In this document: positions 49,086 through 56,640 of the stretch, one piece after another
Position numbering within the stretch: the first letter of the stretch is position 1
Layout of the letters: each line of letters starts with the position of its first letter
Assembly: GCA_030427505.1 (NCBI GenBank)
Contig: JAUICH010000028.1
Coordinates: 1-64,000 of the forward strand
DNA from: Verrucomicrobiia bacterium
Lineage (GTDB): Bacteria; Verrucomicrobiota; Verrucomicrobiia; Verrucomicrobiales; DEV007
DNA length: 64,000 nt
Direction of reading: 5' to 3'
Position numbers and translations under genes: made by a program
Notes under the pieces: generated by a model
Told to the model about the DNA's origin: nothing
Databases searched by the model: none
What the model saw: the letters and a program-made list of their open reading frames with translations, nothing else

Positions 49086-50138
49086 ATGAAGCCCCCGTTC
49101 ATTTCCTCGTCCGCCCCCAGATCCGTCTGCCCGTTTCGTCATCCATTCAGCCTCTTCCTCGCCACCGTCCTCCTTGTCGCCCTCCCATTCCAGACCGCCC
49201 GTGCCTGGGGCGTGGGGCACCAGGTCATCACGCGGGCGGCTTTGGAAGCGGTGGAGGCGCGGGCGCCGGAGTTGTTGGCCCGCTGGGCGGCGCGGCACCG
49301 GAATGCTTACCTGGGGAAGGAGGAAACCATTGCCTGGTATGTGGCGCATCACTTCTGCAAACACCCGGACTGGGTGGACGGCCCGAGCCGGACGGGTGGG
49401 GAGGAAATCGAGGAACGGATCCGCGCCACGGCTTTTGTGTATGCGGAAAAGAACGGGACCTTCCTGCCGCCCATTGCCTACACCGCGCCGGAACGACAGG
49501 AAGGGAAGGGGCCCTGGCCGAAGTCCTATCATTACTTCACGTATCAGACCGGGGAACTGAATCGCGCCTTCGCCCGGAAAGGGGCGCGGTGGTATTTCGA
49601 AAGAATCTCCCAGGCCTTCCGCGAGGGCGAAGACGTGATGGCCGCCGAATACTTTGGGGCTTTTGCTCACGCCATGGAGGACCGGGTCTCGCCCTTTCAT
49701 GTGTGGGACGGCTACGGAGGAAAACGGGAGGCGCTGGAAGACCGGCTGGCGGACCAGGGCTTGCAGGCGCCGGACGGCAGCCGCAACGAAAAGCCGGCGA
49801 ATTCGTCGCTGTTCTGGGGGATCGACGGTCCGGACATGGACGCCGCCGTGCCGGGTTACGAGCCAAAGCTCCTGGGGACCACGCTGGACGAGGCGGCGGA
49901 GGTGTTTACGGAGCGGCTCTTCACGAATCGGGACTTTGCCGAAAGAGTCTACACCGATGCGGAGGGCTTCCTGAAAGCGCACTTGGCGGAGAACTGGAGG
50001 AACAAAGCCGCTGGCGCGGAGACTAACAAATATCTCAGCCAGGTGGCGCGGGAGAATGCGCGGCTCGTGGCGGACGTGCTATGGACGGCCTACACGTTTT
50101 CGAAAGAGGCTGAAAGCGGTGACGCGGCGGCTCAGTGA
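49086..50138 (+). CDS. Secreted phospholipase C / P1 nuclease-like zinc protein
   Basis: 350 aa. The signal peptide ends FQTARA/WGVGHQVIT, so the mature enzyme would begin with Trp, the N-terminal zinc ligand seen in zinc phospholipase C and nuclease P1. Further ligands are AWYVAHHFCKHPDW (His) and YFGAFAHAMEDRVSPFHVWD (H-x3-D and a second His). The trinuclear zinc fold hydrolyses phosphodiesters, either phospholipids or nucleic acids, and sequence alone does not decide which. It is 84 bp upstream of the rsmA fusion gene. Confidence 0.88.
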   Translation: MKPPFISSSAPRSVCPFRHPFSLFLATVLLVALPFQTARAWGVGHQVITRAALEAVEARAPELLARWAARHRNAYLGKEETIAWYVAHHFCKHPDWVDGPSRTGGEEIEERIRATAFVYAEKNGTFLPPIAYTAPERQEGKGPWPKSYHYFTYQTGELNRAFARKGARWYFERISQAFREGEDVMAAEYFGAFAHAMEDRVSPFHVWDGYGGKREALEDRLADQGLQAPDGSRNEKPANSSLFWGIDGPDMDAAVPGYEPKLLGTTLDEAAEVFTERLFTNRDFAERVYTDAEGFLKAHLAENWRNKAAGAETNKYLSQVARENARLVADVLWTAYTFSKEAESGDAAAQ

Positions 50139-50222: not shown

Positions 50223-51587
50223 GTGAACGCCACGGAACTCAGATCGCTGCTGGAGCGGCTCGGCATTTCGCCCAACCGGAAGCTGGGCCAGAGCTTCCTG
50301 GTGGACGAAAACCTGGCGCGCTGGATCGTGGATCAATTGCGGCCGGAGCCGGAAGACGTGGTGATCGAGGTGGGGCCCGGCGCCGGGGCGTTGACGGAAT
50401 GGTTGGCGGGCCAGGTGCGGCGGCTCATCCTGGTGGAGTTCGACCGCGGCCTGGCGGAGAACCTGAGAAACACCCTGGGCCAGCGCCCGGGCGTGGAAGT
50501 GGTGGAGGCGGACGCCGTGGGCTACGACCTGCGGCCCCTCTTCGCGGAAGGGCCGGTGAAGTTCATTGGGAACCTGCCCTACTCCTCCGGCACGGCCATC
50601 CTCCAGACGTTCCTGGATAACCCCAGCCCGGTCGCCGAGGCCGTGGTGATGCTCCAGCAGGAAGTGGCGGACCGCATCGCGGCGGAGCCGAGGACGAAGG
50701 ACTACGGAAAGCTGTCATTGCAGATCCAGAGCCGCTGGACGGTGCGCCGCCTGAAGACCATGGGTCCGGAAGGGTTCTGGCCCCGCCCACAGGTAGACAG
50801 CACGGTCATTCACCTGAAGCCACGCGACCGGCGCGAGCTGCCGGCCTTTGACGAAAAGCTGTTCGGCTCCCTGGTGAAGCGCGGCTTTGCCCAGCGGCGG
50901 AAGCAATTGCGCAAGAACCTGAACGTGGAACACGAATGCTGGGCCACCATAACGCGGGAGTTGGACCTTCCGGAAACGGTCCGCGCGGAGGAGATGAGCC
51001 TGAAGCAGTGGGTGGACCTGGTGATGCGGCTGGACGAACATCCGCTGAGCGCGCATCCGCAGTCGGGCGAAGAACTTTTCGACGTGGTGGACGAGCAGAA
51101 CCAGGTGGTCGAACAACGCCCCCGCGCGGAGGTGCACCGGGACAAGCTGATACACCGCGCGACGCACATCTTTGTATTCAATTCCAAGGGCGAACTGTTT
51201 TTGCAGAAGCGCAGTCAGCTCAAGGATTCCTCTCCCGGCAAATGGGACTCCAGCGCGGCGGGTCACCTGGACGTGGGCGAGCCGTATGAGGCCGCCGCCC
51301 TTCGCGAACTGGAAGAAGAACTAGGTATCTCCGGCGTCCCGGTGGAGAAGCTGGCTCTCCTCACTCCCAGCGCGAACACGGGCTGGGAGTTCGTGGAACT
51401 CTTCCGGGCTGAGTATTCAGGGAAGGTCCGCTGGCCGGGGGCGGAGATTGAGACGGGCGCGTTCTTCCCGGTGGCGGTCCTGGACGACTGGGTGGCAAGA
51501 CGGCCCGGGGACTTTGCGAGTGGGTTCGTGGAATGCTGGAAGGTGTATCGGGGGAACGAAGACAGCGGCGGGAACTTGGGGAGATAG
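50223..51587 (+). CDS. RsmA (KsgA) fused to a NUDIX hydrolase
   Basis: 454 aa with a GTG start. Residues 1-about 270 are the 16S rRNA adenine-1518/1519 dimethyltransferase: GQSFLVDENLARWIVDQL, SAM motif VIEVGPGAGALTEWL, NLPY catalytic tetrad (117-120), and the C-terminal helices with KRGFAQRRKQLRKNL. From about 285 a YfcD/IPP-isomerase-like NUDIX domain follows, with a perfect Nudix box G347-x5-E353-x7-R361-E362-x2-E365-E366-x-G368. No stop or frameshift separates them, and both motif sets look intact. Fusion is unusual, since the two are normally separate genes. Ribosome biogenesis could be coupled to a nucleotide or isoprenoid-diphosphate sanitising step, which is inference. Confidence 0.93.
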   Translation: MNATELRSLLERLGISPNRKLGQSFLVDENLARWIVDQLRPEPEDVVIEVGPGAGALTEWLAGQVRRLILVEFDRGLAENLRNTLGQRPGVEVVEADAVGYDLRPLFAEGPVKFIGNLPYSSGTAILQTFLDNPSPVAEAVVMLQQEVADRIAAEPRTKDYGKLSLQIQSRWTVRRLKTMGPEGFWPRPQVDSTVIHLKPRDRRELPAFDEKLFGSLVKRGFAQRRKQLRKNLNVEHECWATITRELDLPETVRAEEMSLKQWVDLVMRLDEHPLSAHPQSGEELFDVVDEQNQVVEQRPRAEVHRDKLIHRATHIFVFNSKGELFLQKRSQLKDSSPGKWDSSAAGHLDVGEPYEAAALRELEEELGISGVPVEKLALLTPSANTGWEFVELFRAEYSGKVRWPGAEIETGAFFPVAVLDDWVARRPGDFASGFVECWKVYRGNEDSGGNLGR

Positions 51588-52038
51588 ACCACAGATGACA
51601 CGGATGGCACGGATAGTTTTTTTGGCATGACGGTTGGGATAGATCCTAACAGGGCTGCGAAGTATCCTATTTCTGCTTTCGTGAACGGGGATACCGGAGC
51701 GATGGAGTTCGCTTTGTGGATGAAACCACAGAGAACACGGAGGACACAGAGATTAAAGAGAATCGTACGTGGCAGAAGGTGGTCCTCGACCTCCGGGCGA
51801 GGAACTCGCGTGCCGGGCAGAAAACTAGAAACGGAGGCTTCGATACGGATTGGGGAACATTGATAGACCAGAAAGGTTCTAACAAGAGAAGCAACAAAGT
51901 CTTGATATTGCCGGGGTCTCTTCAGACAGCGATGCGGAGTGACGAACGAAGAATTGAAGAGATGAAAAGAATTATGAAATTTAATCTTCCGAAACATATT
52001 CAATTTGAAGGTAAGAATTCGTAGATCATTTTAGTGAT
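51588..52038. other. Repeat debris upstream of a HEPN-like gene
   Basis: 451 bp without a gene. It carries 'accacagatgacacggatgg' (51590-51609), 'gaaccacagagaacac'-type sequence near 51722-51750, and half of a REPIN-like element at 51776-51816. Such CACAGAGAACACAG-like strings are common dispersed repeats in many environmental bacteria. Composition turns AT-rich from about 51890. Confidence 0.5.
51776..51816 (+). repeat. Half REPIN-like element, copy C (41 bp)
   Basis: AAGGTGG followed by a perfect hairpin TCCTCG-ACCTCCGGG-CGAGGA and ACTCGCGTGCCGG. It corresponds to one end only of copies A, B and D. The partner end is not present in the following 150 bp, so this looks like a REP singlet. 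Confidence 0.7.
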
Positions 52039-52650
52039 ATGAAAACCTCGGAAGAAGCAATGTGGCCATCTTCTGATTCATCCTTCTTAGATTATTCTGG
52101 AAGTGATGAGGGATTCGGATTTTTTCAACCAAGTGCGGGTGATTGGGAAAATTACGCGGAAGGTTATCGGTCCGCTGCTTTTCATCTAATGGATCAGCTT
52201 GCCAGTGAAGGCGGTAGGACGTTGGGGGCTGCTATTCGCTATCCTATCGTTTATTTGTTTCGACATTCTATAGAAGTATACCTCAAATCAATTCATCGAG
52301 AAGCGGCGCAACTTTTAGATAATCTTTCGAATCCAGACACTGTGCATGACCTTACAAAACTCTGGACAGAGTTGAGGCCTCTAGTAGAAGAAATTTGGCC
52401 GGACGGAGATCGAAAGGACTTGGACAATGTGGGGCGTTTGATCGCCGAAATTAGCATCCTTGATCCTGCGTCTTACTCATTTAGGTATCCTACGGCAAAG
52501 AATGGGACTCCTTCTCATCATGGAGATCCGTATATCAATTTTTCAAACTTTCGAAAAGCCGCCAAGGAATTGTCGAATTTTTTCGACGGTATATCTCTAG
52601 GAGTTAGTGTTTATTTGGATTGGAAGTCTGAAAGATCTTCAGTCTATTGA
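52039..52650 (+). CDS. HEPN-like hypothetical protein
   Basis: 203 aa with AT-rich codon use unlike its neighbours. Residues about 60-115 are helical and resemble HEPN-type bundles: RYPIVYLFRHSIEVYLKSIH with an Arg-x-His arrangement, then VHDLTKLWTELRPLVEEIWP. Related sequences are found in mobile and defence-associated islands. No partner nucleotidyltransferase (MNT) gene is adjacent. Its 3' end overlaps the 3' end of the HyuAB gene by 12 bp on the opposite strand, consistent with recent insertion here. Function is not assigned, and nuclease activity is unproven. Confidence 0.65.
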   Translation: MKTSEEAMWPSSDSSFLDYSGSDEGFGFFQPSAGDWENYAEGYRSAAFHLMDQLASEGGRTLGAAIRYPIVYLFRHSIEVYLKSIHREAAQLLDNLSNPDTVHDLTKLWTELRPLVEEIWPDGDRKDLDNVGRLIAEISILDPASYSFRYPTAKNGTPSHHGDPYINFSNFRKAAKELSNFFDGISLGVSVYLDWKSERSSVY

Positions 52651-55600
52651 TGCCTCCCCAAACCCGCCACCACCCGGCGTCTCCAGCCTCAAGCGATCAT
52701 AGGTGATGGCGTGGATCTGGGTGACGGCGTCCAGGGTGGTGCCGATGTCTTCGTCTTCGCCAGCGGCTTTGGGTTTTCCTTCGTGTAGGGCGCCCAGGCC
52801 GCCTAACAGGATCTGCTGTCCGGAGGCGCCGGGCTCGCCGCCTTCCAGGCCGTAGGGGCCTTGGGTGCGGTGCTGGGTGAGGAGGGAAATCGTCAGGGAC
52901 TTCAGGAAACGGAATTCCCGGACCAAGCCGTCGCCGCCGCGGTGTTTCCCTTTGCCTCCGCTGCCTTTGCGCAGGGCGAAGGTCTCGAGGCGGACGGGGT
53001 AGCGGTGCTCGAGGATTTCGGGATCGGTGATGGCGGTATTCGTCATGTGGGTGTGCAGACCGCTGGCGCCGCCGTAGCCCGGTCCCGCGCCCGCGCCGCC
53101 GCCGATGGTTTCGTAGTAGCCAAAGGTGTCGTCGCCGAAGATGAGGTTGTTCATGGTGCCCTGGCTACAGGCCTGGATGGCGAAGAGTTTCAGAATCGTG
53201 TCCACCACGCGCTGGCTGGTCTCCACATTACCGCCGACGACCGCCGGGCATTGGTTAGGATCTTCGGGAAACTCGGGGTTCAGGAAGCAGGTGGGCAGGT
53301 GCACGGACACGTCGCGGAGCAGGCCTTCGTTCAGAGGCAGGTCGCTCTGGGTCCAGAGGCGGAAGCAGTAGAGAATGACGCTGCGGACAATGGCGGGCGT
53401 GGCGTTCAGGTTGCCGGGGTGGGCGTGGCTGGTGCCGGTGAAGTCCAGGGACAGGGCGCCGCCGCTTACCTTGGCGGTCAGGCGAATGACCGTGCCGTCG
53501 TCGAGGTGTTCCTCCACTTCGCCGCCCTGGAAGCCAGACTCCTCCAGCTTGCGCCGCAGGGCGGTCTGGGACTGGGCGGCCAGTTCGTCCAGGCGGCGGC
53601 GCACTTCCGTACCGCCGTGGGTCTGGATAAGCTGGGCGAGGGCCTCGGCGCCGCGATGGTTGGAGGCGGCCTGGGCGCGCAGGTCGGACAAGTTGTCCGC
53701 CACGTTGCGCGTGGGGTGGGGAGATTCGAGCAGCAGCGTTTCGAGTTCGTCGAAGCGGTCCTCGCCGCCTTCAATGAGCCGGGTGGGCGCGATGACCACG
53801 CCTTCCTCCGCCAGGCAGGTCGCATTCGCGGGCATGGAGCCGGGGGAGATGCCGCCGAGCTCGGCGTGGTGCGCCCGGTTGGCGACGTAAGCGATGAGCG
53901 TTCCGGCTTCGTCGAAGACCGGCGTGATGAGCGTCACGTCCGGCAGGTGAGAACCTCCGAAGGCCGGGTGATTCGTCACGATGGTGTCGCCGGGCCGCAT
54001 CTCGATCTGGCGAGCCACTTCGCGGACACAGAGACCCAGAGCGCCGAGGTGCACCGGAATGTGCGGGGCGTTCACGACCAGTTCGCCGCGCCCATCGAGC
54101 AGGGCACAGGAGAAGTCTTCGCGCTCTTTAACATTGGTGGAGACGGCGGAACGCTGGAGCATGGCGCCCATTTCCGTGACGATGGACTCGAACCGGTGGC
54201 GGAAGAGTTCGCGCGTGACCGAGCCGGCGGTAGCGACTCCGGCTTCGGCTCCGGCGGGTTCCGCTTCCCTGACAAAATTCCCATCCGGCGGAATGGGGGC
54301 GGTGTCGTCTTCAAAATCGACGTCGTCGCTTTTCGTGAGGATGAGCGAACCGCGCGAGCCGGTCTGAAGGCTCCAGCCTTCCTTGAGAAACAGGGTGCTA
54401 AAAGGGTCCTGCACGATGAGCGGACCCGTCAGGGAACCGCCCGGCTCCAGGGTGTGGCGTTGGAGAAAGCTCGACCGGCCCCTGTTTCCGGCGGAAGAGC
54501 GGGGCGAAGATTCGGCGACACCATGAGGCCCAGTCTCGTCCTGCTTCCAATGCTCAGCCTCAGTCTTGGCGGCCTGGGTGGAGACCACGACGCGCAGGGA
54601 GACCAGCTCGATGGCGCGTTTGCCGGGGGGCAGGAAACCGTAAACTTCGTGGTACTGGTCGCGGAAGAGAGTGGGGAGTGTGTCAGGATCTTCGAAGTCG
54701 ATCGCCAGGGGCGTGTCCTGACCGCGGAAGCGCAGCTCCGCCAGGCGGCGCCGGACTTGGATGGAAAGGCCCGTGCCCGCTTCAGCCTCCAGAGACTGAC
54801 GGGCTTGTTGGGAAAGCGCCTCCAGCCAGGGGCCAACCTCTTCGCGGACCGTTTCCAGATCGCCCAGCACCTGGCGTTCGGCGAAGCGTTCGATGACCGC
54901 CGCGTGCAGGCCGTAGGCGCTGAGCAGCCCCGCCTCCGGCGGCACCAGGAGGGTGCGGACGCCGAGGCGCTCCGCGATGTCGCAGGCGTGCAGCGGACCC
55001 GCGCCGCCAAAGGCCACCAGGGCGTAGTCCGCCGGGTCCACCCCTTCGCGGACGGAGATGGCGCGGATGGCGTCGGCCATCTGCTCCGTGGAAATGGCGG
55101 CCAGGCCGAGAAGAAATTCGCGGCTGACTTCGCTGGTCTCCAGGCCCGCGCGGCCCTGCAACTCCAGCGCCCGTTCGCGGGCCTGGGCCAGGTTTTCTTC
55201 CCCTAACGGAATACCAAAGTTATCCGGGTCGATCCGGCCCAGGAGGAGGTTCACGTCCGTGATGGTGAGCGGGCCGCCGCGTCCGTAGCAAGCCGGGCCG
55301 GGGTCCGCGCCCGCCGATTCCGGACCCACGCGCAGGCCCGCCTCCGTCCACTGGCAAATGGAGCCGCCGCCCGAGGCGACCGTGGCGATCTTCAAGGCCG
55401 GAGCCAGCAAACGGGCCGCGCCGACGCGTTGCTCGAAGCGGTATTGGAAATCGCCATCGTACCGGGCCACGTCCGTGCTGGTGCCGCCCATGTCGAAGGT
55501 GAGCACTTTCTCGAATCCCAGGCTGCGGGCCACCGCCGCCGCGCCGACCACGCCGCCCGCCGGGCCGCTCAGCAGACTGTCCTTGGGACGGAAAGAAGCC

Positions 55601-56640
55601 GTGGTTTCCAGGCCGCCCGCGCTGGTCATGGTGAGCAGTTGCGTGTCCTCGCCCAGGCGGGTGCGGACGTGGTCGATGAAGGCCTGCATGACCGGCGTCA
55701 GGTAGGCGTCCACCACGGCGGTCTCCGCGCGGGGCAGGATCTTGATGAGCGGCGCGAGCTGGGAGGACAGCGAGACGTGCTCGAAGCCCAGCTCCAGCAG
55801 CCAGTCGCGCAGTTGCGTTTCGTGCTCTGGGTTCCGGTAGCCATGGAGCAGGGCCACCGCCGCCATGCGGACGCCGCTGCCGAGGGCGGCCTGGGCGCTA
55901 TCCTTCAAAGCCGGGTCGTCCAGGTGCAGCGGCTGGATGACGGAGCCGTCCGCCGCGAGCCGTTCCGGCACCTCGATGGCGGTCTGGTAGAGCGGCTCGG
56001 GCAGGTGATGTTCCAGGGCAAAGAGGTCCGGCCGCCGCTGGTCGCGGATGCGGAGCAGGTCGCCAAAGCCCCGCGTGATGAAGAAGGCCGCCGGCGCGCC
56101 CTTGCCCTCCAGCAGGGCATTCGTCCCCCGCGTCGTGGCCAGGCGGAGGTCGATGGGCGGAAATGCCTTCGCCAGCCCGGTGCCGGTCAGGAGCCGCGCG
56201 CCCAGGACGGGGGCCTCCTCGCCAGAGGAAAGCTCCAGGCTGGTGGGCGGGCTGGCGGGGTCCAGCTCGAGAACTCCGGCGCCACTGCCAGCGGAAGAAG
56301 TTGAGAAGCTAAGCATTCCACTGGCTGCGTCCCAGCCGGTGACTTCGGCGGTGGCGTCGCCCAGGCGGACGGTGAAGCCTTCGAAAAAGCCATCAGGCGC
56401 GGACCACTGGCGGGGCAGGTCCAGGCGGGCTTCCGCCGGGCTGGGGACGGAATTCACCGTCACCCGCAGCTTACCGGAGGAAAGCACCTTCACGAAGCGG
56501 GCGGACCCGTCGCCGTCGCCGTCCGGCGGCAAGCCGAAGCAATCGGTAAAGGTACCGCCGGTATCCACGCGGATCCGCCAGGCGGGAGAGGAGGAAGAGG
56601 AAGCAGAAACAGCAGCAGGGGACTGGGAATCGGAATTCAC
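52639..56640 (-). CDS. HyuA-HyuB fusion (5-oxoprolinase type)
   Basis: 1333 aa with a GTG start. The N-terminal ATP-dependent HyuA part has RVDTGGTFTDCFG near 25-37, ATTRGTNALLEGKGAPAAFF and the second phosphate loop FDMGGTSTDVA. A HyuB part begins near residue 810 (VTRELFRHRFESIVTEMGAM, then VTNHPAFGGSHLPDV and GGGAGAGPGYGG). The length and order match ATP-dependent 5-oxoprolinases that open pyroglutamate to glutamate, but hydantoinases and acetophenone carboxylases share them. No neighbour suggests the substrate. It is a single gene; the stop overlaps the HEPN-like gene on the other strand. Confidence 0.95.
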   Translation of the reverse strand: MNSDSQSPAAVSASSSSSPAWRIRVDTGGTFTDCFGLPPDGDGDGSARFVKVLSSGKLRVTVNSVPSPAEARLDLPRQWSAPDGFFEGFTVRLGDATAEVTGWDAASGMLSFSTSSAGSGAGVLELDPASPPTSLELSSGEEAPVLGARLLTGTGLAKAFPPIDLRLATTRGTNALLEGKGAPAAFFITRGFGDLLRIRDQRRPDLFALEHHLPEPLYQTAIEVPERLAADGSVIQPLHLDDPALKDSAQAALGSGVRMAAVALLHGYRNPEHETQLRDWLLELGFEHVSLSSQLAPLIKILPRAETAVVDAYLTPVMQAFIDHVRTRLGEDTQLLTMTSAGGLETTASFRPKDSLLSGPAGGVVGAAAVARSLGFEKVLTFDMGGTSTDVARYDGDFQYRFEQRVGAARLLAPALKIATVASGGGSICQWTEAGLRVGPESAGADPGPACYGRGGPLTITDVNLLLGRIDPDNFGIPLGEENLAQARERALELQGRAGLETSEVSREFLLGLAAISTEQMADAIRAISVREGVDPADYALVAFGGAGPLHACDIAERLGVRTLLVPPEAGLLSAYGLHAAVIERFAERQVLGDLETVREEVGPWLEALSQQARQSLEAEAGTGLSIQVRRRLAELRFRGQDTPLAIDFEDPDTLPTLFRDQYHEVYGFLPPGKRAIELVSLRVVVSTQAAKTEAEHWKQDETGPHGVAESSPRSSAGNRGRSSFLQRHTLEPGGSLTGPLIVQDPFSTLFLKEGWSLQTGSRGSLILTKSDDVDFEDDTAPIPPDGNFVREAEPAGAEAGVATAGSVTRELFRHRFESIVTEMGAMLQRSAVSTNVKEREDFSCALLDGRGELVVNAPHIPVHLGALGLCVREVARQIEMRPGDTIVTNHPAFGGSHLPDVTLITPVFDEAGTLIAYVANRAHHAELGGISPGSMPANATCLAEEGVVIAPTRLIEGGEDRFDELETLLLESPHPTRNVADNLSDLRAQAASNHRGAEALAQLIQTHGGTEVRRRLDELAAQSQTALRRKLEESGFQGGEVEEHLDDGTVIRLTAKVSGGALSLDFTGTSHAHPGNLNATPAIVRSVILYCFRLWTQSDLPLNEGLLRDVSVHLPTCFLNPEFPEDPNQCPAVVGGNVETSQRVVDTILKLFAIQACSQGTMNNLIFGDDTFGYYETIGGGAGAGPGYGGASGLHTHMTNTAITDPEILEHRYPVRLETFALRKGSGGKGKHRGGDGLVREFRFLKSLTISLLTQHRTQGPYGLEGGEPGASGQQILLGGLGALHEGKPKAAGEDEDIGTTLDAVTQIHAITYDRLRLETPGGGGFGEASID

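Follow-up and report, generated by a model that had tools for sequence, protein, structure and literature searches.

An RsmA-Nudix fusion protein conserved within one class of Verrucomicrobiota

The window analysed here, a 64,000-nt stretch of contig JAUICH010000028.1 from a Verrucomicrobiia bacterium, encodes on its forward strand a single protein in which an RsmA (KsgA) dimethyltransferase is followed by a Nudix domain (Table 1). The preliminary description had placed one 454-codon frame at this locus, and its coordinates proved exact, with no internal stop codon. Both halves match Pfam families well above the cut-offs (RrnaAD, PF00398, residues 18-270, 178.5 bits against 24; NUDIX, residues 311-420, 64.3 bits against 21.1), and an AlphaFold2 model of the whole protein based on 50 homologues (pLDDT 93.7, pTM 0.90) consists of two domains in confident relative placement. 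The linkers of other fused genes, with domain edges taken from profile searches as in Table 1, are similarly short (0-14 aa).

The gene is preceded by an ORF of 350 aa (49086-50138, forward strand) that matches nothing in Pfam or NCBIfam. Downstream, the intergenic sequence contains several near-copies of CCACAGA(T/G)..ACACGGA(T/G) at 51588-51615 and 51725-51745; the pattern occurs 4 times in the window, where chance would predict 0.1, and looks like a dispersed intergenic repeat. Beyond it lies a 1333-aa ORF on the reverse strand (52639-56640) that by eye resembles a fused 5-oxoprolinase/hydantoinase of the HyuA-HyuB type.

Table 1. Features of the fusion gene, in window positions.
Feature	Position	Strand	Description
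rsmA-nudix fusion gene	50223..51587	+	454 aa; GTG start at 50223, TAG stop at 51585-51587
RsmA/KsgA half	50223..51038	+	residues 1-272; profile matches and fold match to KsgA
SAM motif EVGPGAGALT	50367-50396	+	residues 49-58
NLPY catalytic motif	50571-50582	+	residues 117-120
Short linker EHPLSAHP	51039..51062	+	residues about 273-280; domain edges by profile searches
Nudix half, YfcD/IDI-like subfamily	51063..51560	+	residues about 281-446
Nudix box GHLDVGEPYEAAALRELEEELGI	51261..51329	+	residues 347-369

RsmA/KsgA is the dimethyltransferase of A1518 and A1519 in 16S rRNA and is encoded by a near-universal gene. Few proteins are as widely conserved across life, and to our knowledge it only rarely carries extra catalytic domains. 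The N-terminal half of the fusion scores 230 bits against the NCBIfam ksgA equivalog TIGR00755 (cut-off 171), and the model of the whole protein matches KsgA structures, 6ift with a target-normalised TM-score of 0.85. Residues E49, G51, G53 and N117-Y120 are invariant across 50 fused homologues, and the acidic residues D74 and D97 are likewise invariant. The half resembles standard RsmA/KsgA (TIGR00755; PDB 6ift, 7o5h) in its full domain, SAM and NLPY motifs, D74/D97 and fold, whereas standard RsmA lacks the Nudix domain that the fusion protein carries at its C-terminus. No second RsmA was found in the genome, where the remaining PF00398 matches reach just 21-28 bits.

The Nudix box of the C-terminal half, GHLDVGEPYEAAALRELEEELGI, fits the consensus GX5EX7REUXEEXGU exactly, and its residues G347, R361, E362, E365 and E366 are invariant in the 50 homologues. 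Both Pfam families are matched by all 50 aligned fused homologues, and the catalytic residues of both halves are invariant or nearly so. These results bear out the earlier view of the protein as a complete RsmA joined to an intact Nudix box of YfcD/IPP-isomerase (IDI) type, a joint that is unusual among bacteria at large. The model of the Nudix half (pLDDT 92.9) matches E. coli YfcD (2fkb, TM 0.85/0.92), and the fold matches of this half alone are YfcD, DR_0079 and IPP isomerase. YfcD is its top match in both sequence and fold and shares the intact box; unlike the fusion, however, YfcD is a separate protein, and the Nudix half stays below the cut-off of the YfcD equivalog NF011922 (90.7 against 152).

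We also weighed whether the Nudix half could be a type I IPP isomerase that supplies DMAPP. The isomerase is similar in fold and sequence; in profile searches of the genome no type II isomerase scored above its threshold, and no stand-alone type I enzyme was seen. Against this, the position of the catalytic Cys of IDI (C67 in E. coli) is occupied by Ala (A346 in the fusion protein) or Ser in the aligned homologues; the PDB chains 1hx3 and 1ow2 carry Ala at this same position. Scores also fall far short of the IDI cut-offs (TIGR02150, 53.7 against 105.8; NF002995, 68.7 against 127), and since IspH is present, IPP and DMAPP can both come from the MEP pathway, with no need for an isomerase. Two IspH genes score over the cut-off (G000, C6:129321-130349 and C30:97818-98648). 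With the catalytic Cys absent and the IDI scores low, isomerase identity was dropped as very improbable, so that of the hydrolysis or isomerisation originally proposed only the former remains probable, and the YfcD/IDI-type assignment stands. A separate idi or comparable nudix gene, sought elsewhere in the genome, did not emerge: there are seven further Nudix genes, one of them RppH-like, none of which has an IDI- or YfcD-like match over a cut-off, and no second close relative of the fusion's subfamily was found among the genome's genes.

The positions of IDI His25, His32, His69 and Glu116 correspond to H305, H311, H348 and E389 of the fusion protein and are all invariant. Type I IPP isomerase (PDB 1NFS) thus shares with the Nudix half its fold and these four positions, but the fusion has a canonical hydrolase Nudix box where IDI does not. 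In alignments, YfcD is without counterparts to H25, H69 and E116, and none of the IDI His positions is kept in DR_0079. Because the Cys is replaced by Ala or Ser while the four His/Glu positions are kept, the Nudix half is, on sequence grounds, a hydrolase-type Nudix domain with an IDI-like His/Glu set and not an isomerase.

For the substrate, two enzymes are informative. One is plant NUDX3, a putative relative of the Nudix half. Like the fusion, it joins a Nudix domain of the IDI-like group to an unrelated enzyme, in its case a peptidase (a Nudix-dipeptidyl peptidase III fusion). NUDX3 has been classed with IDI (PMC2707057) and is reported to convert IPP, DMAPP, GPP and FPP to their monophosphates (PMC11062433). 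The other is D. radiodurans DR_0079 (PDB 1Q27/2O5F), a CDP/CTP pyrophosphatase that resembles the Nudix half in fold (TM 0.77-0.83) and subfamily neighbourhood; this close solved and assayed relative prefers cytosine nucleotides (PMC5158307, PMC5389931). It differs in being a separate protein without the His pattern, and the last Gly of its box is replaced by Asn (PMC5389931). By analogy, the assayed relatives suggest two substrate classes, cytosine nucleotides as for DR_0079 or prenyl diphosphates as for NUDX3. A role in converting isoprenoid diphosphates, IPP/DMAPP or longer ones, into monophosphates, which would trim the prenyl diphosphate pool, is consistent with the retention of H305/H311/H348/E389, mostly missing in YfcD and DR_0079, alongside a full Nudix box, and with the activity and IDI grouping of NUDX3. 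However, the kinship to NUDX3 is putative and the nucleotide preference of DR_0079 argues against this role, and we regard it as a tentative, rather unlikely reading, which overlaps with the explanation preferred below as a narrower version of it.

Searched with the whole protein, 55 of the 57 genomes from the window's family and order, its own genome counted among them, show the fusion at full length. The other full-length matches are 46-57% identical to the window protein and several lie in finished one-contig genomes, which does away with the concern that the fusion might be limited to one assembly. Both exceptions are draft assemblies, one with a partial match (G035) and one with a weak match (G014). 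Sequencing or assembly error might have hidden a stop codon separating two neighbouring genes: 4-nt overlaps in some relatives mean that one indel error could fuse the genes on paper, and isolated fusions in two further genomes (G149 and G248) are each known from a single assembly. For the window this reading was discarded as having practically no chance of being right: the same frame is open in the independent genomes just described, and the linker holds no remnant stop. Chance and assembly error are both excluded by the recurrence of this two-domain frame, at 43-57% identity, across dozens of independent genomes. Within one genus (genomes of 2.2-3.5 Mb), median dN/dS is 0.048 for the RsmA half and 0.062 for the Nudix half; judged by these low ratios, both halves are under strong purifying selection and have been kept by it.

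The domain order, which the preliminary description had proposed to trace across Verrucomicrobiota, proved to be clade-wide in one class. This class was surveyed in 141 genomes at least 90% complete, each half being scanned separately and the arrangement then classified. The halves are fused in 51 genomes (about 36%), encoded by adjacent but separate genes in 19 and by genes lying apart in 64, and one half went undetected in 7; 5 of the 141 yielded RsmA but no Nudix gene. The fused set comprises 48 genomes called by script and three (G073, G151, G152) moved from the adjacent category, in which a single frame runs across both halves. Where the genes are apart, they lie on different contigs in 44 genomes and are distant or on opposite strands of one contig in 20. 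From the phylum's other classes, 128 genomes gave no fused match; there the Nudix gene, if present, stands alone and is not beside rsmA at the places listed; named loci with a stand-alone Nudix gene come from one Puniceicoccaceae genome, two Opitutales genomes and Planctomycetes. A scan of contigs for exact peptide patterns with the whole protein gave no fused relative, although this search is insensitive and says nothing on absence.

Where the genes are adjacent, the Nudix gene lies downstream of rsmA on the same strand, and in five genomes (G083, G094, G121, G143, G160) there is a 4-nt ATGA overlap between the rsmA stop and the nearest Nudix start. Such an overlap is the usual sign of translational coupling. 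Because separate neighbours are common in the class (19/141) and several overlap in this way, coupled neighbouring genes are a likely source of the fusion and probably its simplest history; the order from adjacent to fused is favoured because outside the class the two genes are, as a rule, separate, and fission may have occurred in some lineages. In trees of each half, which are not firmly rooted, 38-39 of 44 fused rows fall into one large group. A single origin for every fusion is ruled out on the RsmA tree, which rejects one clade of all fused rows, a group set by domain state before the tree was made (AU test, p = 2e-6). A common origin of the large clade and family f7 is not rejected (p = 0.28), the Nudix tree joins the two weakly, and the f7 fusion may share its origin with the large clade. 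The single-assembly fusions G149 (L105) and G248 (L108), whose nearest relatives G121 and G083 have separate genes with the ATGA overlap, may represent additional genuine fusion events, or else frameshift errors. In family f8, rsmA and nudix are adjacent but separate at four loci (L100, L110, L111, L116) among which the inter-gene frame varies, so that they offer a natural series in which to study how genes fuse. Upstream of the pair, many adjacent-gene genomes have a queE-like gene and the fused clade has different genes; a conserved larger operon was looked for, and the rsmA-nudix pair alone is common to the genomes. Conservation of the pair despite changing upstream neighbours hints at more than co-expression.

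We propose, with a probability of about 0.65, that the fusion is a bifunctional housekeeping protein, combining the sole RsmA of the genome with an active Nudix hydrolase, that arose from a coupled gene pair and fixes 1:1 co-expression. By orthology, the N-terminal half would dimethylate the two adjacent adenines in helix 45 of 16S rRNA. The C-terminal half is predicted to be an active Mg-dependent Nudix diphosphohydrolase, YfcD/IDI-like and non-isomerase, whose substrate would most likely be a small nucleoside or prenyl diphosphate. Present-day intermediates suggest that two neighbouring, translationally coupled genes lost the intervening stop, and the main effect would be the fixed 1:1 co-expression, with neither reaction needing to depend on the other.

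Alternatively, the two activities could be coupled. RsmA docked on the immature 30S subunit would then position the Nudix domain at a diphosphate substrate linked to the ribosome or RNA, candidates being an RNA 5' end, a capped RNA and a stress nucleotide; or the Nudix domain would sense a metabolite and gate rRNA methylation. The pair is fused or neighbouring over much of the class, the linker is very short with confident domain placement in the model, and up to two more fusions occur in lineages whose sisters have adjacent genes. However, the genes are non-adjacent in the other classes searched, the Nudix half resembles RNA pyrophosphohydrolase models only weakly (28.8 bits; cut-off 116), and the genome has a separate RppH-like Nudix. 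Functional coupling is therefore unlikely in our view, and the earlier suggestion that the fusion ties ribosome maturation to hydrolysis is unsupported, given that 64 of 141 class genomes carry the two genes apart and a further 5 yielded RsmA but no Nudix gene. Likewise unlikely is the proposition that in Verrucomicrobiota RsmA and a prenyl- or nucleoside-diphosphate hydrolase are functionally coupled, one protein thereby controlling both 30S assembly and a diphosphate pool of metabolites or RNA ends. A DNA-repair role reported for KsgA in E. coli (PMC10091538) is possibly another link, by analogy, to nucleotide-pool cleaning.

In the literature searched, most of it open access, nothing on an RsmA-Nudix fusion was found beyond one entry in a 2013 fosmid gene table, a 450-aa Akkermansia 'dimethyladenosine transferase' with the domains 'ksgA, NUDIX hydrolase' (PMC3861447, Table 1, gene 34). 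Its two domains and length match the fusion and it very probably belongs to the same protein family, although the entry is uncommented and unstudied there. The fusion is genuine and conserved and has drawn little attention. It amounts to an undescribed variant in which two ordinary enzymes form two domains of one protein, and not to a new kind of system. The present-day series of apart, ATGA-overlapping and fused genes offers a clear example of a coupled pair becoming one protein, and the fusion singles out a Nudix subfamily that keeps the IDI-like His/Glu positions, lacks the isomerase Cys and is open to direct substrate assays. A clade-wide two-enzyme RsmA, gut bacteria such as Akkermansia included, provides a cheap test of a link between rRNA methylation and diphosphate metabolism.
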